This document shows, in pieces, positions 8,470 to 17,325 of a stretch of 40,058 nucleotides of DNA (the first letter of the stretch is position 1; each line of letters starts with the position of its first letter). Under the pieces are notes generated by a model that saw only the letters and a list, made by a program, of their open reading frames with translations, was not told where the DNA came from and ran no database searches. Source of the stretch: a virus; the IMG/VR virus record IMGVR_UViG_3300043640_000107, positions 1 through 40,058 of that record. One strand, given 5' to 3'. A program made the translations under genes and the position numbers.

Positions 8470-8877
8470 TCACGCTGTGTCACTCCGACGTTGGTCGGTC
8501 CGCGTTTCCCATGGATGTCGTTCGGGTGGTCTGAGTCGTCCCGGTCGTGCCGCTCGGGCTACTACCGCGGCAGTGCTTGCCTGCCTTGCCGTCCTGCCGC
8601 GGTGGTGGCCGCCGCACAGGGAGCGCAGTACCTCGGGCCGGTGGTCGTCAGGGTCGCCTGTGTGGTCTACGTCTGTGGCCTTGGTGGTGCACCGTGCCGG
8701 GTGGTCGGCTGCCCCTGGCATGAGCGGGTGGCCGCCATCCGGCAGTGTGGCTATCCACGTACAGCGGTGCCCATCCCTGTCCAGGATGTCTAGGCGGATG
8801 GCTTTCCAGCCGACTGGTAGCCGTACTGTGCGCCGAGAGGTGGGGTCGGGTGCCCAGTGGCCGTCAGTGGTGGGCAT
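8470..8877 (-). CDS. HNH endonuclease (packaging-associated)
   Basis: A 135-aa protein with a compact HNH fold: Cys in RDGHRCTW, a second Cys about 28 residues on, the core 'ATDVDHTGDPDDHRPEVLRS', then LCGGHHRGRT. DHT and the later GGHH supply the catalytic and metal-binding His residues. Such single-domain HNH proteins next to terminase are required for cos cleavage in HK97-like phages, so a packaging role is more likely than homing. The start at 8877 overlaps the FkbM gene by 14 nt; its SD is weak. Confidence 0.88.
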   Translation of the reverse strand: MPTTDGHWAPDPTSRRTVRLPVGWKAIRLDILDRDGHRCTWIATLPDGGHPLMPGAADHPARCTTKATDVDHTGDPDDHRPEVLRSLCGGHHRGRTARQASTAAVVARAARPGRLRPPERHPWETRTDQRRSDTA

Positions 8878-9502
8878 CGAGAGCGCGCCTAGCTGGTACG
8901 AACAGGGTGTCCGCGTAGGTGGCATACGGGCCTGCGATCTCATGTCGCCACTGGATGGCGGGTACCCAGTCGCACTCGGCCATGTACCGCTCGACGTCTA
9001 CCCAGTTGGCCGCCGAGCCGCGCCCTACCTCTTGGGTCTCAATCACCACGAGGTCGAGCCGGGACAGGTCGGCTGTGCGCAGGACGTCGAGTTCGGTGCC
9101 CTGCGTGTCGATGGTGGCCACGTTGGCGGCGCCCTGAATCGCGGACAGCGGGCGGGTCTCCACGGTGAAGGTGGACAGGGTCGGGTAGTCCGGGTCCTCC
9201 GCGAGCCCACCGCCGCAGTCTCGGGCGTTGCGCTGGAAGGTCGCGATGCCGTCGTCCGCCGCGCAGGCCAGTTGCAGAAGCGGGACGTCCGGGTACGCCG
9301 CGCGGATGATGGCGCAGTTGTCCGGGTCCGGCTCCACGAGGGTGATCGATGCGAAGCCGCACTGGCGGTAGGTCGGGACTTCCTGCCCGTAGTGCGCACC
9401 GACGTGGATGATGCCGTACGGCTCGATGTCGAGATGCTTGAGCGCGACCGGGAGGCGGTTGGCGGTCCAGGAGTTGCCCGGATGCAGCTGCTCGACGATC
9501 AT
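8864..9502 (-). CDS. FkbM-family SAM-dependent methyltransferase
   Basis: A 212-aa Rossmann methyltransferase. The glycine-rich SAM loop is IIHVGAHYGQE (about 31-41) and the acidic end of beta-2 is TLVEPDPDN. Later motifs are VATIDTQGTELDVL and LDLVVIETQ, typical of the FkbM family, which O-methylates sugars. With two glycosyltransferases 2-5 kb upstream it may cap or modify a glycan. ATGA overlap with the preceding gene. Confidence 0.9.
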   Translation of the reverse strand: MIVEQLHPGNSWTANRLPVALKHLDIEPYGIIHVGAHYGQEVPTYRQCGFASITLVEPDPDNCAIIRAAYPDVPLLQLACAADDGIATFQRNARDCGGGLAEDPDYPTLSTFTVETRPLSAIQGAANVATIDTQGTELDVLRTADLSRLDLVVIETQEVGRGSAANWVDVERYMAECDWVPAIQWRHEIAGPYATYADTLFVPARRALDAHH

Positions 9503-9897
9503 CCGACGGCCGCCCCTGCGTCGTCGCCGTTGTTCCGTTCGATGTGCGCCCGCAGGTGCTGGCTCATCTCGGCTATCGCGGCATCAGACGGAGCGATATC
9601 CATCGACGGGAAGTTGATCGTGCGGACGGCTTCGCGGCCCATGACGTTCTGGATGTACTCGTCCACAGCCTTGGCTGGCGACGTGGCCTCCGGCTCGGTG
9701 TCGGTAGCGACGTCCAGCCGGCCCTCGACAACGAGCACCCCGGACGCGCAGCAATCGTCCTTGAACGCCTTCAGGTTGGCCTGCAACTCCTGGACGTTGC
9801 CGAGATCCGTGGCCTGATCAATGATCAACGCGAAGGGTTCGGTAGTCGCGTCGCCGATGGTCACCAGCGGCAGCGGGAGGATCTGGATGCGGGCCAT
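9499..9897 (-). CDS. Actinophage conserved protein, 132 aa
   Basis: An unknown protein starting MARIQILPLPL. An N-terminal beta-rich part contains PFALIIDQ and GVLVVEGRLDV; the C-terminal part is helical and charged. Proteins with this opening are recurrent near FkbM and HNH genes in actinophages, without known function. The ATG and the flanking stop codons overlap on both sides, so it is tightly co-translated. Confidence 0.75.
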   Translation of the reverse strand: MARIQILPLPLVTIGDATTEPFALIIDQATDLGNVQELQANLKAFKDDCCASGVLVVEGRLDVATDTEPEATSPAKAVDEYIQNVMGREAVRTINFPSMDIAPSDAAIAEMSQHLRAHIERNNGDDAGAAVG

Positions 9898-10532
9898 CAG
9901 GCAGCCACCTTCTTGTCAGCCTTGGCCATGTCGCAGACGCGCCGGTAGATGTCCGGATCGCGCTTGCCGGCCGGGACCGTGGCAAGGAGTCGCTGGCGCT
10001 CCCGTGCGCCGGGGCGGTCGCCGAACGCCCGGCCGTTGCCGCACCGGGCGCAGGTGCCGTAGGGGCCGTGCTCGGCGCTGCTGTCCCTGCACTGCGGCTC
10101 GACGCAGATGCACGAGCTGTGCGCGCGGGCTACGGCCGAGCAGTCGTGGTGGTATCGACCGGGCGCGCCCTGCCACCAACGTCCGGCCGGGCCGTCCCAT
10201 TGGTGGGAGATGTTGACCGCGTCCATCTTGCTGTGTCGGCCGCCGCACCATGCGCATCGGGTCAATGCCCAGCGGCGAAGGTCTTGCAGCGGCGAGACCT
10301 GAAGGCGCCAGTGGTGGACGTGGAAGCGCCAGCCGTTGAGGAACCGGTATCGCCACTCGCCGTTCGCGTTCTGGACGCGCCGGTACTCCTTGCAGACCTC
10401 GCCGGAGTCGTGGCCGCCGGGCTCACGGTGCCAGACGGTGACCAGGGCTGGCCAGTACCGGGAGCCGTTGGCCCGGCGAGGATTCGGCCACGGGCGTTTG
10501 ATCTCGAACGCGACGCGCAGTGGATCGTGCAT
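9897..10532 (-). CDS. Cys-rich zinc-binding protein, HNH-related?
   Basis: A 211-aa protein with several metal-site pairs: CAWCGG near residue 95, a Cys/His pair in YHHDCSAV, CICVEPQC, and a C-terminal CARCGNG. The first half is basic and Trp/Tyr/Arg-rich (WRYRFLNGWRFHVHHW). The Cys spacing fits two zinc ribbons, possibly a degenerate HNH. No catalytic set is clear. It overlaps the next gene upstream at TGATG. Confidence 0.75.
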   Translation of the reverse strand: MHDPLRVAFEIKRPWPNPRRANGSRYWPALVTVWHREPGGHDSGEVCKEYRRVQNANGEWRYRFLNGWRFHVHHWRLQVSPLQDLRRWALTRCAWCGGRHSKMDAVNISHQWDGPAGRWWQGAPGRYHHDCSAVARAHSSCICVEPQCRDSSAEHGPYGTCARCGNGRAFGDRPGARERQRLLATVPAGKRDPDIYRRVCDMAKADKKVAA

Positions 10533-10789
10533 CAGGCCGCGCCCCGATTGGGCCCCACGAGCGCGGGGATGTGACGCGCGGCGAACACTGCGGCAGCACG
10601 GGCCTCGGTAACCGATCGAGGGTCTCGCTGGTGCGCGGCCTCAACGTCACTCAGCCCGGCGTAGCTGCACGTCACGCCGGAGTCGTCGCGGCCCGTGACC
10701 ACGAGAAGCTGGCCCATCGAGTCCGGGCCGAGCAGGGTGCCAGGCTCGGCATCGCTTCGATTCAGCCGGCCGACTGGAAAGCTGGACAT
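10532..10789 (-). CDS. Unknown small protein, 85 aa
   Basis: An 85-aa protein with a central beta-like LLVVTGRDDSGVTCSYAG and a helical Ala-rich C-terminus. The start ATG at 10789 has AAGGAG at good distance, and the TCCCCCAATCCCCC motif lies 18 nt upstream. It is the first gene of a unit after a strong hairpin. The family is not recognised. Confidence 0.7.
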   Translation of the reverse strand: MSSFPVGRLNRSDAEPGTLLGPDSMGQLLVVTGRDDSGVTCSYAGLSDVEAAHQRDPRSVTEARAAAVFAARHIPALVGPNRGAA

Positions 10790-10806
10790 ATGCGTGCTCC
10801 TTGCGT

Positions 10807-10820
10807 GGGGGATTGGGGGA
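10807..10820 (-). promoter_or_regulatory. Start-associated motif, copy 1
   Basis: The minus-strand 14-mer TCCCCCAATCCCCC lies 18 nt upstream of the ATG at 10789. The identical 14-mer recurs at 12817-12830, and shorter versions precede other genes. The function is unknown. Confidence 0.5.
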
Positions 10821-10832
10821 GAAGTGCATGCA

Positions 10833-10890
10833 CCCGGTCCGGCTCCTCACAGCGGCCCATCCCCCAACGGGAGCCGGGCGCCGGACCGGG
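10833..10890 (-). terminator. Long hairpin between two small genes
   Basis: A perfect 10-bp arm pair, CCCGGTCCGG (10833-10842) and CCGGACCGGG (10881-10890). Extra complementary GGCTCC/GGAGCC segments inside allow alternative folds. It starts 13 nt after the end of the 224-aa gene to its right. There is no U-tract, as is usual for GC-rich actinobacterial terminators. Confidence 0.6.
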
Positions 10891-10903
10891 GCACGATCAG
10901 GAG

Positions 10904-11578
10904 TCACCGCTTCGACGCCATGATCTGCGCGGCGGTTTTCTTCTTGCCGACCTTCCGCACGCTCAGCGTCTTCGGCCGATCGGTCTGGTCGTCAACGCTG
11001 GCACGGGCTCTTCGTGCGGCGAACCGTTCGCCCTTCACGGTCCGGTCGGCGCCGGCGCCAACCATCCGCTTGCCGACCCGGTCGTCTTTGTACATCTGCG
11101 CGGCCTGCAATACGTCATCGGGCACGACGTGCGACAAGGGTGTGCCCGGGGTCGTCGCTGTGGATGGGTAGCCGTTGTAGGAGGTGCGGCTTTCCCAGTC
11201 CTCACGGGGCGGCGTCACCGGGAAGGGGCGGCCGGGCCAGTAGTAGTAGCCGTTGTGCCAGCCGGGCTTGCCGTCCGACTTCACCCAATACTGCGGGCCT
11301 TTGATCATGTACCAGTGGCCTTTGGCCTGTTCGCCGAAGCGCAGACGTTGGCCCGTCCGGTCTTCCATGGACTGCTTGTGCCGGGCGGTGGCCTTGAGTT
11401 CGGCTACCCTGCGCTCGCCACGGTTGACGCTCACCGCTTTGCCAGCCGGGGAGCGGAACACGTCGTGCTCAACCTCGCCATGGCGTCGGGCATGAGCAAG
11501 GCCGCGGGCGAACTCGCCGTTGCGATCCCGGGGGTGAAGGGCTGACGTCCATTTCTCAGCGGCGACATGCCGGCCCAC
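10904..11578 (-). CDS. Basic unknown protein, 224 aa
   Basis: Starts at GTG 11578 with AGGAGG just upstream, 14 nt after the preceding stop. The N-terminus contains 'EKWTSALHPRDRNGEFARG', the 'PRDRNGEFA' element found at the start of many actinophage virion-associated proteins. The middle is aromatic (GYYYWPGRPFP), and the C-terminus is strongly basic (RKVGKKKTAAQIMASKR), fit for nucleic-acid contact. Function not recognised. Confidence 0.75.
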   Translation of the reverse strand: MGRHVAAEKWTSALHPRDRNGEFARGLAHARRHGEVEHDVFRSPAGKAVSVNRGERRVAELKATARHKQSMEDRTGQRLRFGEQAKGHWYMIKGPQYWVKSDGKPGWHNGYYYWPGRPFPVTPPREDWESRTSYNGYPSTATTPGTPLSHVVPDDVLQAAQMYKDDRVGKRMVGAGADRTVKGERFAARRARASVDDQTDRPKTLSVRKVGKKKTAAQIMASKR

Positions 11579-11592
11579 GACGCCTCCTAGAG

Positions 11593-11883
11593 TCAGGTTG
11601 GCTGGCCGACGGTGAGTGTGGTGAAGACCAGCGTGGTGACGTTGCCGCAGGACGGGCACGCCGCCTGGATGGTGTTCGGCAGCGCGCCGGCCGACTCGGG
11701 GTCGGGCACCGTGACGTCGAAGACGTGGCCGCGGAGGTGGGGCAGCTCACCTTCCGGCCCGATGCCTTGGTACTCGCCGAGCTTGCCGCCCATGGCTCTC
11801 GCCTCGATCGCGGCCAGCGACCGAAGCCGGTCGGTGAGGGTGAGGCCGTTGAGCATCGGGACGACTAGCTGCACGATGGCCAC
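11593..11883 (-). CDS. Unknown protein with single CxxC, 96 aa
   Basis: A 96-aa protein starting at GTG with GAAGGA upstream. It is mostly beta in the C-terminal half and has one ACPSCGN knuckle at about residue 76; a full zinc ribbon would need a second pair, which is missing. It lies between glycosyltransferase and unknown genes. No family assigned. Confidence 0.7.
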   Translation of the reverse strand: MAIVQLVVPMLNGLTLTDRLRSLAAIEARAMGGKLGEYQGIGPEGELPHLRGHVFDVTVPDPESAGALPNTIQAACPSCGNVTTLVFTTLTVGQPT

Positions 11884-11910
11884 GGGGGAGTCCTTCAGGG
11901 TTGGGGGATG
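11884..11910 (-). promoter_or_regulatory. Start-associated motif, copy 2 (split form)
   Basis: On the minus strand, CATCCCCCAA (11901-11910) is followed after a short spacer by CTCCCCC (11884-11890), ending at the GTG start at 11883. This matches the split arrangement seen near 40.0 kb. It overlaps the end of the glycosyltransferase gene. Confidence 0.4.
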
Positions 11911-12590
11911 AGGTACGGGCGGTGCTCGGCGACCAGCGCGCGGACAGCATCCGGGTTGCCCTGCGCGGCGTCGTACCGGTCGGCGAGGGCACGGCTAGCG
12001 CCATAGGTTGAGTCGCGTACCCGAGACGTCGGATGCCACAGGTGATGGATCACGCCTTCGTGGCGGACAGTCGGGCCGAGCAGGGCGTCAGCCGCAACCC
12101 GGAAGCTTGTATCTTCAAAACCCCAACCGGCATGACGTTCATCCATGCCGCCGGCACGCCACCAAGCGTCCGGCTGGATGACCAGAACGCCGCCCGTTGC
12201 CCAGTCGGTCTCTTGCTCCGTGTCCAGCCCGGTCAGAACGGCGCCGGGGGATCGGTGGAACGTCTCGGTCGCAGTCTCCGAGAGACCGCGGTACCGGGTG
12301 TAGGGCAGATGAAGCCGGCCGTCGTCCGCGTCTGCGATCGCCTCGTGCAGCGGTCCCGGCTCGACAAGGGTGTCCGCGTCGCAGATCACCACCACGTCGG
12401 CAAGGCGGGACTTGGCGAGCAGGACGCCGCAGTTGCGGGCGCCCGCACGGCTGAACGTGAGGTGACCGGAGTCGGCATCGAGATGGACGGCCCGGGGTAG
12501 TAGCTGGCGGAGGTGCGCCCGGACGGCGGCGTGGTGCCCCTCCCGGTCGGGCTGGCCGCCGCGCCACGGGACGACTGCGGCAACGATCAC
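11895..12590 (-). CDS. Glycosyltransferase, GT-A fold (GT2/galactosyltransferase-like)
   Basis: A 231-aa enzyme. The N-terminus IVIVAAVVPWRGG fits a nucleotide-sugar binding strand. VVVICDADTLVEPG carries the DxD metal motif (DAD). The segment GGMDERHAGWGFEDTSF matches the conserved acceptor-side block of galactosyltransferase C-terminal domains, with the catalytic ED. The start at GTG 12590 overlaps the preceding stop as GTGA; an ATG at 12623 is possible but has no SD. Likely glycosylates a virion or cell-surface target. Confidence 0.88.
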   Translation of the reverse strand: MIVAAVVPWRGGQPDREGHHAAVRAHLRQLLPRAVHLDADSGHLTFSRAGARNCGVLLAKSRLADVVVICDADTLVEPGPLHEAIADADDGRLHLPYTRYRGLSETATETFHRSPGAVLTGLDTEQETDWATGGVLVIQPDAWWRAGGMDERHAGWGFEDTSFRVAADALLGPTVRHEGVIHHLWHPTSRVRDSTYGASRALADRYDAAQGNPDAVRALVAEHRPYLIPQP

Positions 12591-12805
12591 GATGGGTCGG
12601 AGATCCACTCCGCGTGCTGCCATTGGTGGTGTGCGTAGATGGCGACCGTCTGTCCGTCGCCCTCGATCATGAGAGCGCCATCCTCCGCCTCGTAAAACAC
12701 GAGCGCAGCGGCGTGCTCGAACTGCCGCCCGTCGGCGGTGAAAACGCGGACGGCCTTGGCGTCGGTGCGGATCTGCGCAGGCAGGCGCGGGCTGGTTACG
12801 GTCAC
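12587..12805 (-). CDS. Unknown small beta-rich protein, 72 aa
   Basis: Starts at GTG 12805 with GAGGTG 5 nt upstream. The sequence alternates short strands (VRVFTADG, ALVFYEAEDGAL, QTVAIYAHH) and ends with HQWQHAEWISDPS. It is sandwiched between two glycosyltransferases and coupled to the second by GTGA. Function not recognised. Confidence 0.7.
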   Translation of the reverse strand: MTVTSPRLPAQIRTDAKAVRVFTADGRQFEHAAALVFYEAEDGALMIEGDGQTVAIYAHHQWQHAEWISDPS

Positions 12806-12816
12806 GGAGACACCTC

Positions 12817-12830
12817 GGGGGATTGGGGGA
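12817..12830 (-). promoter_or_regulatory. Start-associated motif, copy 3
   Basis: TCCCCCAATCCCCC on the minus strand, identical to 10807-10820. It lies 12 nt upstream of the GTG at 12805 and directly before its GAGGTG ribosome binding site. Confidence 0.5.
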
Positions 12831-12833
12831 AGG

Positions 12834-13514
12834 TCACTGGAGTGCCTTGACGGCTTGGACGTCGTGGGCGAACTGGGCGTTGAGGTACAGGTCCCAAGCT
12901 GCGGCATCGGCCGAGATGGCGGCTGAGCTGTTGACACGGTCGTAGCTCGCGTCCGTCTCGGCCTTCCGGGCGGTCGGATGCAGATGCTCGATGATCACGT
13001 CGGGTAGGTAGGTCAGGTGGCCGATGGCCTTGCCGAGCTCAAGCCAGAAGTTGTCCACGTACAGATGCCGCAAACCGGGCGGTGCCATGTAGCCGAGCTT
13101 CAGCACGATGTTCGAGGTGAGCGCGACGGCGGTCGGGAGCAGTGGACCTTGGAGTTGGTCGTTGCCGTAGGCCACGCCGGTGTAGTTCTCGTAGAGCACA
13201 TCGACGAGAGCCTTGTCCCAGCCGGGCGTGACGAACAGGTGGTCATCGCCGCAGAATCCCAGCATCGGATAGGTGGACGCGGACTGGTCGGCGTAGTGGT
13301 TCAGGGTGGCCACCATGCCGCGCCACGGGCCGACGGCGCATTGGAAGTTCTTCGACGCTGCCGACTGGTACGCCGAGGCGTTGGGCCAGTCGCCGTCCAC
13401 GGCGATCAGCAGGTTGGCAGCGCCGGTACTCGTCTCATTGAAGGATCGGACGAGCCGTGCGGCGTTGCCGGGCCGACCGCGCGTCGGAACGATCATCAGT
13501 AGATCGGCGGTCAT
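12834..13514 (-). CDS. Glycosyltransferase-like protein
   Basis: A 226-aa protein opening LLMIVPTRGRPGNAARLV, the standard GT2 first strand and loop, with LLIAVDGD as the next strand. The acidic segment GFCGDDHLFVTPGWD provides a DD motif in the place of DxD, followed by GVAYGNDQ. The C-terminal part has 'LRHLYVDNFWLELG' and 'DVIIEHLHP', which fit a catalytic base and His. Starts at ATG 13514 with GAGGTTG upstream. It forms a set with the GT at 11895 and FkbM. Confidence 0.85.
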   Translation of the reverse strand: MTADLLMIVPTRGRPGNAARLVRSFNETSTGAANLLIAVDGDWPNASAYQSAASKNFQCAVGPWRGMVATLNHYADQSASTYPMLGFCGDDHLFVTPGWDKALVDVLYENYTGVAYGNDQLQGPLLPTAVALTSNIVLKLGYMAPPGLRHLYVDNFWLELGKAIGHLTYLPDVIIEHLHPTARKAETDASYDRVNSSAAISADAAAWDLYLNAQFAHDVQAVKALQ

Positions 13515-13553
13515 CTCAACCTCATGGGGGACGGAGGTATGGCGGACGGTTGG

Positions 13554-13559
13554 GATACT
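13554..13559 (+). promoter_or_regulatory. -10 element for leaderless plus-strand gene
   Basis: GATACT ends 6 nt before the ATG at 13566, so transcription would start at or next to the A of the start codon. The -35 region is weak. No SD is present, which fits a leaderless mRNA. Confidence 0.45.
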
Positions 13560-13565
13560 GACCGG

Positions 13566-13958
13566 ATGCAGCCAGGGACTCTGAGTGACCCATGGGTTGG
13601 CGACGAGCCGACGCAGCACGTCCGGCCGACGGACCGGCCAATGCCAGCGCAGCGACCGGTCGGGCAGGCTCAGCCGCCGGCGCCGTACGGTTATCCGGCC
13701 CAAGGCCAGCAGTACCCGCCGGCCGCACCGTGGCAGCAGCCATACCAGCCTCAGCAGTACGGGCCGCCGGTGCCGATGTACGTGCAGATGCCGGTCGCGG
13801 TACACCCGCAGCAGGCGGTGACGACGCGGTACATCGGGCCCGGGTTTCACATCGGGCACCTGCTCGGCGTGCTTTTCACCGGCGGGCTGTGGCTACCCGT
13901 GTACCTGATCGCGTGGTGGCACCGGAGCCGGCCGACGTCGGTGACGACCTACCGCTGA
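13566..13958 (+). CDS. Pro/Gln-rich membrane protein (moron)
   Basis: A 130-aa protein on the strand opposite to its neighbours. Residues 1-75 are Pro/Gln-rich (PYGYPAQGQQYPPAAPWQQP). One hydrophobic helix at about 96-116 (HIGHLLGVLFTGGLWLPVYL) is followed by a basic tail (WWHRSRP), so a single-pass membrane protein is likely. The separate promoter and orientation suggest expression from the prophage as a lysogenic conversion gene. Similar Pro-rich plus TM proteins are common in actinobacterial genomes. Confidence 0.75.
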   Translation: MQPGTLSDPWVGDEPTQHVRPTDRPMPAQRPVGQAQPPAPYGYPAQGQQYPPAAPWQQPYQPQQYGPPVPMYVQMPVAVHPQQAVTTRYIGPGFHIGHLLGVLFTGGLWLPVYLIAWWHRSRPTSVTTYR

Positions 13959-14760: not shown

Positions 14761-16332
14761 CTACATCCACGGCCATGCCGCGTTCCGACCAGCCTCCAGT
14801 AGCGGGATCGCACGGAAGGTCGCGTCGGTGAGCCCGCCGAACTCGTGCCGGTTGCCCGTGCCGACCGCGAACGCACCATGCTGGTAGCCCCCGAGGTTGA
14901 AGCCGTACATCGGCACGTTGGTCGGTATGGCGTCGCCTACCCCGTAGGGGCCGCTCATCGTCTGCATGTCGGAGATGAGGAAGACGCGGTCGTGGCCCCG
15001 ATAGGTGGACCGCAGGGACTGGGCAATGGCGGTGCCATGGCCGACCTCGCCGGACCGCTTGACGAACCGATCCACCTCGCGGATGACCGACGCACCCTTG
15101 GCAATGGGGTGGCTGAAGACGCCGTCAGCGAAGCCACAGAGGTCCACCTGCTCGCCCTTCGCCGCGAGGGCCACACCGAAGACCGCGGCGGCCTTGAGTG
15201 GGGTCACCTTCGACCGTGAGGAGATTCCGAAGCTGGACATCGAGCCGGAGGTGTCCACGAGGATGAGAGAGCGGCCAGGCGTGGCCGGCAGGTTGATCAG
15301 GGACGCCTGTAGCGCCCGATCGAGCGGGTGACCCCAACGAAGCGACGGTGCGGCCTCGTACGCCGAGAGCCAGCGGAACGGGAACATCCGGGACTTGGCG
15401 ACCTGCTCCGGGTCGGTGAACCGCGCGGCGACCAGATCGGTAACGCCGTCCGGGACACCCGCCTCATCGAAGTTCCGCAGGTTCCGGGCGAGCGCCATGA
15501 TGCCCATCGACGGGATGAGCGCCGACCACAGCACGGACTTGTCAGCCCGCGAGCCGACCAGCGACAAGGCGTCTTCCCACGTCATGCCGGCCTCTCGCAG
15601 GTTGCTTTCCGACAGCAGCGCCTCGGGGTGCTCCACTGCGATCCGGCGAAGCTGGGCGTTGTTGCGGATCATCGTCAGCGTCTCGGGGATCTCGTCGGCG
15701 TGCCCGTGGCGGCGGTCGATAGCGTGCCGGAAGAGTGCCGACTGGCTGTCATCCTTCGGCTTCGGCCGGGTCAGTTCGAGTACGTCGGCGAAGCGGTAGC
15801 CGTGGCTCGCCGTGTCGTACTTGAGCAGGCTGCGTTCGTGATACAGCCGGACAGCGGCATCTGCGACGCCGTTCTTCACCGGCAGTGGGATGGAGCGGCC
15901 ATGGCGAGAGGTCCAGTAGGCGAGCATCTCGCCCGGCTCGTCGGCGCGCTGCAACACGGCGTCGATCATCTGCCGGTTGTCGCCGAACGCCTTCGCGGCG
16001 ATCCGGGCCTTGACCGCCTCGGCCGCGCCTACGAGGGATGCACTGCGCATGTTGGCGTCGCCCCGCAGCCAGCGCAGGAATCCGGCGGTCCACACCGGGT
16101 CGGCAACGGCCACCTCGTGGATCAGGTGCTCGTACCGCTCGTCACGGTCGCCGGCCTTCTCGTAGAAGGTGTTCTCGCCGACCATGTTGGACACCGCGAG
16201 CAGGAAGAGTTCCGAGCGGGAGTCACGGGCATAGCCCGGCCCGCCCTCGTGCGTGGTGCCGCTCGGGGTGGCCTCGGAGCGAATCGGCGAGGTGACCGAC
16301 GGGCGGGTGCCGGGCTGGTTGAACTTGCTCAT
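14761..16332 (-). CDS. rsr: Ro60/Rsr-like TROVE-VWA ring protein
   Basis: A 523-aa Ro autoantigen orthologue. Residues about 20-340 form the helical-repeat TROVE ring; residues about 355-515 form a von Willebrand A domain with a complete MIDAS: LVDTSGSMSS (D360, S362, S364), GHGTAI (T434) and LISDMQ (D455). Ro proteins bind Y RNAs on the outer face and misfolded RNA ends in the ring cavity, and in bacteria team with exoribonucleases such as PNPase. A Y RNA gene lies directly upstream on the same strand. The ATG at 16332 sits 5 nt after a terminator T-tract and has no SD; the only SD-like GGAAGG is inside the terminator stem. This suggests regulated read-through or leaderless translation. Confidence 0.95.
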   Translation of the reverse strand: MSKFNQPGTRPSVTSPIRSEATPSGTTHEGGPGYARDSRSELFLLAVSNMVGENTFYEKAGDRDERYEHLIHEVAVADPVWTAGFLRWLRGDANMRSASLVGAAEAVKARIAAKAFGDNRQMIDAVLQRADEPGEMLAYWTSRHGRSIPLPVKNGVADAAVRLYHERSLLKYDTASHGYRFADVLELTRPKPKDDSQSALFRHAIDRRHGHADEIPETLTMIRNNAQLRRIAVEHPEALLSESNLREAGMTWEDALSLVGSRADKSVLWSALIPSMGIMALARNLRNFDEAGVPDGVTDLVAARFTDPEQVAKSRMFPFRWLSAYEAAPSLRWGHPLDRALQASLINLPATPGRSLILVDTSGSMSSFGISSRSKVTPLKAAAVFGVALAAKGEQVDLCGFADGVFSHPIAKGASVIREVDRFVKRSGEVGHGTAIAQSLRSTYRGHDRVFLISDMQTMSGPYGVGDAIPTNVPMYGFNLGGYQHGAFAVGTGNRHEFGGLTDATFRAIPLLEAGRNAAWPWM

Positions 16333-16337
16333 CGACG

Positions 16338-16366
16338 AAAAAGCCCTTCCGGGTGGGGAAGGGCTT
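16338..16366 (-). terminator. Intrinsic terminator between Y RNA and Ro gene
   Basis: On the minus strand AAGCCCTTCC (16366-16357), loop CCACCC, then GGAAGGGCTT (16350-16341): a perfect 10-bp stem with five T (16342-16338). It would give the Y RNA its 3' end. Segment GCCCTTCC (16364-16357) is also the 3' half of the closing Y RNA helix, so the two folds exclude each other. Confidence 0.9.
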
Positions 16367-16544
16367 CACGCGGGCCGGCTGGAGACCAGCCGAGAACCAA
16401 GGCGACCGTGGACATCATTTGCTCTGCCAGTTGAGCGACGGCACCCTCACGGCTGCCGACAGGACTCGAACCTGCAATCCAATAAGGAAGTAGCCACAGT
16501 CTGCACACAGGCTGATCACCAGCCGGTCCGCGTTTCGCCCCTCC
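16357..16544 (-). ncRNA. yrlA: Y RNA, YrlA type, with permuted tRNA-like module
   Basis: Minus-strand folding read from the sequence. Helix P1 is GGAGGGGC (16544-16537) with GCCCUUCC (16364-16357). A 4x4 purine-rich loop follows, GAAA (16536-16533) opposite UGAA (16368-16365). P2 is 14 nt (16532-16519 with 16382-16369), with one A-C mismatch. P3 is GACUGUGG (16501-16494) with CCACGGUC (16411-16404). Inside lies a T-arm, GCAGG-UUCGAGU-CCUGU (16475-16459), then CGGCAGCC (16458-16451), a short loop, GGUGCCG (16445-16439), and a D-arm, GCUC-AACUGGCA-GAGC (16436-16421). T-arm, 3' acceptor, 5' acceptor, D-arm is a circular permutation of tRNA, the published hallmark of YrlA RNAs. GGCGAA at the P1 junction matches the core of the bacterial Ro-binding motif. 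Exact ends are inferred from pairing. Confidence 0.88.
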
Positions 16545-16614
16545 GAGAACAAGAACGACCCTGGGTGTAATTCAAAGCAGGAAGTAACCCCGGGTCTTCA
16601 CATAGGAGGTGCGC

Positions 16615-17163
16615 TCAGAACGTAACCCTGGAGGGCTCCTCGGCGCAAACGTGATGCTGCCAGTGTTCGCCCGCGATGAGCCGGCTGATCGTCGTGTGGG
16701 CGCACCCGAGACGTCGAGCGATGCTGCGGCACGACTCCCCGTCGGCATACCTACGCCGAGCTTGGGCGATGTCCGCATCGGTGAGTCGCCGGACCGTGGC
16801 CACGAACCGGGCGATGTGCTCCTCGGATCGGGTGCCTCGCCAGTTTCCCGGACCCGCCGGGACGATCCGGCCCTTGCGTCGAGCGTCGCGATTGTTGTGC
16901 TCGGCGGTGCCAAGGAACAGGTGGTCCGGTCTGACGCACCTCGGGTTGTCGCAATGGTGGCAGACGAAAAAGCCGTCTGGGATCGATCCGAAGTGCAGCA
17001 CCCAGGAATACCGGTGTGCCCTGATCGGAGGCTGGCCGCTCGTCGCATTGAACTGACCGTAGCCGCTGGTGTTGAGACTGGCCGTCCACTCCCAGCAGCC
17101 GATTTCGACCTTGTGGACGTGTCGCCAGAACCGCTCGTAGGCGGGTGCGTGCTTGCCGGGCAT
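16615..17163 (-). CDS. HNH endonuclease with C-terminal HTH
   Basis: A 182-aa protein. The HNH core is VCHHCDNPRCVRPDHLFLGT followed by AEHNNRDARRKG (HNH_3 type), with metal and catalytic His/Asn in place. A later helix-turn-helix, DADIAQARRRYADGES then SIARRLGCAHTTISRLIAG, fits a DNA-recognition domain. The start at 17163 has AGGAG 7 nt upstream. This two-domain layout is typical of free-standing homing-type HNH enzymes; it may have inserted next to the Y RNA locus. It ends 70 nt before the Y RNA helix. Confidence 0.9.
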   Translation of the reverse strand: MPGKHAPAYERFWRHVHKVEIGCWEWTASLNTSGYGQFNATSGQPPIRAHRYSWVLHFGSIPDGFFVCHHCDNPRCVRPDHLFLGTAEHNNRDARRKGRIVPAGPGNWRGTRSEEHIARFVATVRRLTDADIAQARRRYADGESCRSIARRLGCAHTTISRLIAGEHWQHHVCAEEPSRVTF

Positions 17164-17325
17164 CCCCATGCTCCTGATCGCGAAGTCGGCAACCGAGCGG
17201 GCATGAGCCCGCTGCGGTTGTGGATTCGCTTCCGAGATCAGGTTCCCGTTGAGGGATGTTCGCACCGGAAGGCGACCCTGACGGTAGCCCGACCCAACAC
17301 CCAACGCAAACGGGTACCGACGTCG

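Follow-up and report, generated by a model that had tools for sequence, protein, structure and literature searches.

A Ro60-type protein gene and two Y RNAs in a temperate phage of soil actinobacteria

What might a phage gain by encoding a Ro60-type protein next to structured RNA, and where would such a cassette come from? The question is posed by a 40,058-base virus record of IMG/VR, the whole of which was analysed and is here called the window. It encodes a terminase, portal, head protease, major capsid protein and integrase and is therefore a tailed temperate phage, in agreement with the sequence-only reading that preceded this analysis; its host is probably an actinomycete of the Micromonosporaceae. 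We find the window to be a virus of soil actinobacteria with an intact copy of the RNA-surveillance particle of these hosts, i.e. a Ro60-type ring and two Y RNAs, and we regard the identity of the individual parts of the cassette (Ro protein, Y RNAs and hairpin; Table 1) as practically assured. Reports of Y RNAs close to phage Ro genes date back to about 2014, when Chen et al. reportedly described Y RNAs in the vicinity of Ro60 for over 250 species of bacteria and phages, and we know of no established function of any phage Ro RNP. TROVE proteins have been described in jumbo phages (PMC7824862), YrlA in several phages according to reports cited in PMC7765460, and the PDB already contains a phage Ro60 structure (phiLo). 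The earlier statement that phage Ro genes had been noted before thus holds, and the window is a well-supported further example of an already known type of phage-borne particle, not a novel system: the fresher observations are the actinobacterial Y RNAs invisible to Rfam and the leader hairpin.

Table 1. Features of the Ro cassette and its upstream flank (positions in the window)
Feature	Position	Strand	Basis or remark
Ro60/Rsr-type protein, 523 aa (TROVE HEAT-repeat ring + vWA domain)	14761..16332	minus	ATG at 16332; Pfam TROVE, AlphaFold, superposition
U5 after the leader hairpin, terminator-like	16342-16338	minus	
Leader hairpin, GAAGCCCUUCC-loop-GGAAGGGCUUU	16340..16367	minus	conserved and covarying in homologues
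Shine-Dalgarno candidate GGAAGGG in the 3' arm of the hairpin, the sole good one	16350-16344	minus	11 nt before the ATG
YrlA-type Y RNA core (Ro-binding stems + tRNA-like domain)	16386..16515	minus	model R1, 90.8 bits; Rfam YrlA, 32.4 bits
YrlA-type RNA with extended basal stem	16370..16531	minus	fold
Pairs of the extended basal stem	16531-16528/16373-16370, 16526-16519/16382-16375, 16517-16510/16391-16384	minus	fold
P2, presumed Ro-binding stem (GACUGUGG/CCACGGUC)	16501-16494 with 16411-16404	minus	R1 match, fold
Conserved CUACUUC motif directly after the 5' strand of P2	16493-16487	minus	
T-arm (GCAGG-UUCGAGU-CCUGU)	16459..16475	minus	Rfam match, R1 match, fold
Acceptor-like stem closed by a loop (CGGCA ... 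UGCCG)	16458-16454/16443-16439	minus	R1 match, fold
D-arm (GCUC-AACUGGCA-GAGC)	16421..16436	minus	R1 match, fold
Short Y RNA without tRNA-like domain (YrlB-like)	16540..16609	minus	model R2 match, covariation, fold
Stems of the short Y RNA: P1 CCUCC/GGAGG; P2 GACCC.GGGU/ACCC.GGGUC; UACUUCC motif	within 16540..16609	minus	
HNH endonuclease with helix-turn-helix	16615-17304	minus	phrog_826, PF13392; ends right beside the start of the short Y RNA
Possible degenerate third Y element (P1 motif only), doubtful	17229..17271	minus	R2, 18.2 bits, E 0.11

The protein component is readily recognized: the TROVE domain (PF05731) is detected in the Ro frame at 55.5 bits against a Pfam cut-off of 23, bearing out the earlier assignment of a Ro60/Rsr-type gene. 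AlphaFold, which reached a pLDDT of only 38 from the single sequence, gave a good model with a pLDDT of 90.8 when supplied with an alignment of 42 related sequences. Along its whole length this model superposes on Xenopus Ro60 (2i91), with a Z of 29.6 over 475 residues at an rmsd of 2.8, on the Ro60 of Thermus phage phiLo with a Z of 22-23.5 and on Deinococcus Rsr (2nvo) with a Z of 18.4. The predicted fold is a HEAT-repeat ring closed by the vWA domain. The MIDAS (DxSxS...T...D) is composed of D360, S362, S364, T434 and D455 and is intact, as had been claimed: the other four residues never vary among the 42 aligned Ro proteins, and S362 is nearly invariant. Equally constant (42/42) is K171, at the position of the human Y RNA contact residue K170. 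The position aligned to human His187 is occupied by Arg189 in the window and by His in 40 of the 42 relatives. Human Ro60 H187 contacts Y RNA and has been described as essential for the contact (PMC4030889); Arg189 may still bind Y RNA.

The sequence-only reading had further placed a YrlA-type Y RNA before Ro, with a circularly permuted tRNA-like domain at 16475-16421, and both the assignment and the exact coordinates of the T-arm, acceptor stem and D-arm stand. A search with the Rfam YrlA model (RF02553), one of the checks it had suggested, returns a full-length match at 16500-16393 on the minus strand (32.4 bits, E 0.0024); as this is under the curated gathering score of 69, the RNA is not filed under RF02553 itself. 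None of 31 related phage records reaches that score, the best attaining about 50 bits, so that the Y RNAs of this lineage are overlooked by routine annotation. As an independent test, we built a covariance model, R1, from 24 elements upstream of Ro in other phages with the window excluded; it matches the window at 16515-16386 (minus) with 90.8 bits (E 4.7e-22), the next best match in the window scoring 8.3 bits. Compensatory changes in homologous loci, whose absence, like that of a YrlA match, was to count as a refutation, are also present: on the 24 phage elements RNAalifold finds 27 pairs, of which 22 show such changes, and the covariation score of the alignment is 0.559 versus 0.178 when shuffled and at most 0.152 with the partners slid. 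The minimum-energy fold of the single sequence (-82.0 kcal/mol) lacks the T- and D-arms and is slightly preferred, by 0.7 kcal/mol, over one forced to hold them (-81.3); therefore, the YrlA claim rests on the comparison of homologues and not on energy. Judged by these sequence comparisons, the RNA is YrlA-type in architecture: its Ro-binding stem carries, in permuted order, a T-arm, a closed acceptor stem and a D-arm. Its tRNA-like domain has no anticodon arm, ARAGORN finds no tRNA genes in the window, and its core ends about 54 nt from the Ro ATG.

A phage-encoded Ro RNP made up of a YrlA-type RNA and Ro had been proposed: both are indeed present, but a second, short Y RNA immediately upstream and the host derivation of the cassette had been overlooked. 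The model R2, derived from 16 other short elements with the window excluded, matches 16609-16540 with 31.0 bits (E 5e-4), and in the short-element alignment A7, which includes the window, P1 and P2 covary with a score of 0.381 (shuffled, 0.122; slid, at most 0.115), for columns that were named by hand on the same alignment that was scored; the automatic structure from RNAalifold missed P1. With a Y stem, no tRNA-like domain and a place beside the YrlA-type RNA, the element is YrlB-like. Tandem Y elements before Ro are the rule across Actinobacteria and their phages, a pattern equally missed before: upstream of Ro the motif [GC]GNTACTTC has a density of 2.23 per kb versus 0.066 elsewhere, and at least two copies lie within 1 kb in 20/30 viral and 61/80 bacterial loci. 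A Y match at E < 1e-6 lies near Ro in 78 of the best 80 bacterial relatives, and the order from Y elements to Ro is kept in 78/80 bacterial and most phage loci. The actinobacterial covariance model recovers Y RNAs that fall under the Rfam cut-off in all related phage records examined, and with it most Ro genes are seen to be preceded by Y elements in tandem. The P1-only element at 17271-17229 may, from its sequence, be a third, decayed Y copy, and since it lies near the 5' end of the HNH gene, that gene may have inserted into the Y array. The frame 16572-17204, considered as the gene upstream of Ro, has no family match and was set aside; the overlapping frame is the HNH gene.

Between the Y RNAs and Ro lies a hairpin (16367-16340), also passed over by the earlier reading. 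Over 82 loci, a median of 48.5 nt separates the last Y RNA from the ATG of Ro, and this spacer usually forms the hairpin. Its 3' arm holds the best Shine-Dalgarno match in 72 of the 82 Ro loci versus 74 of 187 control ORF starts, a crude, mechanically chosen set, because of which a function of the hairpin is advanced here only conditionally. Its covariation is modest (0.372 versus 0.259 shuffled and at most 0.246 slid), a simple terminator scan did not flag it in the window, and we found no earlier description in the open-access papers searched. One might picture the actinobacterial and phage hairpin as a switch responsive to the Ro RNP, combining terminator and translation block and coupling Ro synthesis to Y RNA supply, with phages repeatedly taking the whole self-regulating cassette from their hosts; we consider this rather unlikely. 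The common hairpin offers a simple route to testing the balance of Ro and Y RNA levels.

Where the cassette came from is indicated by the kinship of its protein. The best 80 bacterial relatives of the window Ro are all actinobacterial, the nearest relatives are 64-67% identical, and the Micromonosporaceae Ro stands at 67%. In a tree of 94 proteins the window Ro clusters with one other virus and with Rugosimonospora africana (SH-aLRT 99); the surrounding clade consists mostly of Micromonosporaceae and Pseudonocardiaceae. The virus/bacterium label requires 15 changes on this tree, with at least eight of them forced by well-supported branches; therefore, phages and actinomycetes have exchanged the Ro gene repeatedly. 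On this sequence evidence the window cassette is host-derived, closest to the Ro of Micromonosporaceae. By comparison, the 'Ro-like RNA binding proteins' of Streptomyces, Gordonia and Arthrobacter phages, which like the window have upstream Y elements, are only 40-47% identical to the window Ro. A further phage Ro60 is that of phiLo (PDB 9l5y/9kop), in whose record we found no YrlA match and on whose structure we found no paper in the literature searched. The cassette of the window is compact and apparently intact, lies in a temperate phage record of 40 kb and is near the host version, so that host and phage copies are directly comparable.

The earlier observation that rtcBA context is missing is correct, in that RtcB of the rsr-yrl-rtcBA RNA-repair operon is absent from the 40-kb record, but it is not distinctive, because actinobacterial Ro loci likewise have no protein neighbor common beyond the genus level. 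A conserved partner nuclease or RtcB was sought among these loci and rejected, the shared neighbors being confined to single genera, and no nuclease or RNA-repair gene adjoining Ro was recognized in the window. Hence, the module comprises the Y RNAs and Ro. Ro and its Y elements are often found in or beside large tRNA arrays in actinophages and in some Micromonosporaceae (phage records L018-L028; also L033-L035, L094); in Streptomyces phage Kela an annotated RNA ligase gene (L026 2229-2981) sits directly upstream of Ro, between it and the Y elements.

For the use of the cassette we propose the following. A temperate actinomycete phage would carry an intact host-derived Ro RNP cassette that we infer to be transcribed, and the Ro ring would bind the basal stems of both co-encoded Y RNAs, the short one occupying and gating its RNA-binding surface. 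The YrlA-type RNA would in addition present a tRNA-like module to which, on the pattern of Deinococcus and Salmonella, a host 3'-5' exoribonuclease (PNPase) could attach, such that Ro and the host nuclease would form a machine for structured or damaged RNA in infection or lysogeny. The hairpin after the Y RNAs, holding the Ro ribosome-binding site, would probably set the amount of Ro relative to Y RNA. As a whole, combining host-derived RNP, nuclease adaptor and hairpin control, this is the explanation we favor, with better than even confidence. That a Ro RNP forms from the cassette, even with Arg189, is very probable; the role as nuclease adaptor, drawn by analogy, is tentative and falls a little short of an even chance, with redirection of host nucleases by the phage RNP being plausible. 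Against the explanation as a whole speak the Arg at a near-invariant His, the lack of a recognized nuclease or RNA-repair gene beside Ro and of RtcB in the record, a PNPase link demonstrated to our knowledge in Deinococcus and Salmonella only, and the slight preference of the minimum-energy fold for another pairing of the T- and D-arms. In other bacteria, YrlA attaches to Rsr through its basal stem and to PNPase through its tRNA-like domain, which redirects the nuclease toward structured RNA (PMC8394870; on the Rsr-YrlA-PNPase mechanism also PMC8058203, PMC9879122). The Deinococcus radiodurans complex of Rsr, Y RNA and PNPase (RYPER) shares a Ro ring and Y RNA with the window and serves as the working model for nuclease tethering; PNPase tethering in the window is proposed by analogy, and the Deinococcus Rsr fits the window Ro less well than does Xenopus Ro60. 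The Salmonella rsr-yrlB-yrlA-rtcBA operon likewise has a Ro60-type protein, a tRNA-like Y RNA and a further Y RNA in tandem, its YrlB/YrlA pair (PMC9879122) resembling the short and YrlA-type RNAs of the window, which differs in having the Y RNAs upstream of Ro, no RtcB and an RF02553 score under the cut-off.

The main rival, prompted by the many Ro genes situated in tRNA arrays and by a decoy role proposed for YrlA, holds that the cassette acts on tRNA and not on nuclease specificity: the tRNA-like Y RNA would decoy or compete with enzymes that cleave or modify tRNA, e.g. host anticodon nucleases, or the Ro RNP would check phage and host tRNAs. In annotated Streptomyces, Gordonia and Arthrobacter phages Ro is frequently found within or next to tRNA genes, some Micromonosporaceae have 17-30 tRNAs arrayed ahead of the Y elements, and in Kela an RNA ligase gene immediately precedes Ro; moreover, YrlA serves as a substrate for TruB and DusA (PMC8394870) and has been proposed as a competitive inhibitor of anticodon nuclease (PMC7790460). 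The window itself has no tRNA gene, though, its tRNA-like domain lacks the anticodon arm, and most bacterial loci checked are free of tRNA arrays; we judge this role unlikely. A more radical use of the tRNA resemblance would be to take the RNA for a decayed or split tRNA gene and no Y RNA at all, which the T- and D-arm sequences and the weak scores of true tRNA arrays with YrlA models might suggest. This is excluded, to a negligible residual probability, by the permuted order on a Ro-binding stem with covarying P1 and P2, by an R1 score of 90.8 bits versus about 40 for tandem tRNAs, by the absence of a tRNA according to ARAGORN and by the fixed place before Ro in 78/80 bacterial loci.

The cassette might also be neutral cargo, captured from a host without benefit to the phage. 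The close kinship to Micromonosporaceae Ro, the temperate lifestyle implied by the integrase and the altered contact residue Arg189 would accord with such a history; against it, the ORF and MIDAS are intact, both RNAs and the leader hairpin retain their pairing even though Ro is only 64-67% identical to its nearest relatives, and the cassette is present in many other phages. We accordingly judge neutral carriage to be quite improbable, and retain the host-derived Ro RNP with a possible adaptor role as the preferred explanation.

Several lesser observations accompany these results. The longest array seen is on a viral contig (L015) with about eight Y-type elements in a row before Ro. Some annotated 'tRNAs' just upstream of Ro that overlap YrlA-type matches, such as the tRNA-Pro of Frankenweenie and the tRNA-Arg of VanLee, are probably annotation errors; ARAGORN makes like calls on Y elements, e.g. 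at L035 3830-3898. In the window, the minus-strand region 8864-13859 between the terminase and the Ro cassette encodes an FkbM-type methyltransferase and two glycosyltransferases, perhaps with a role in modification of virion or host surface glycans.
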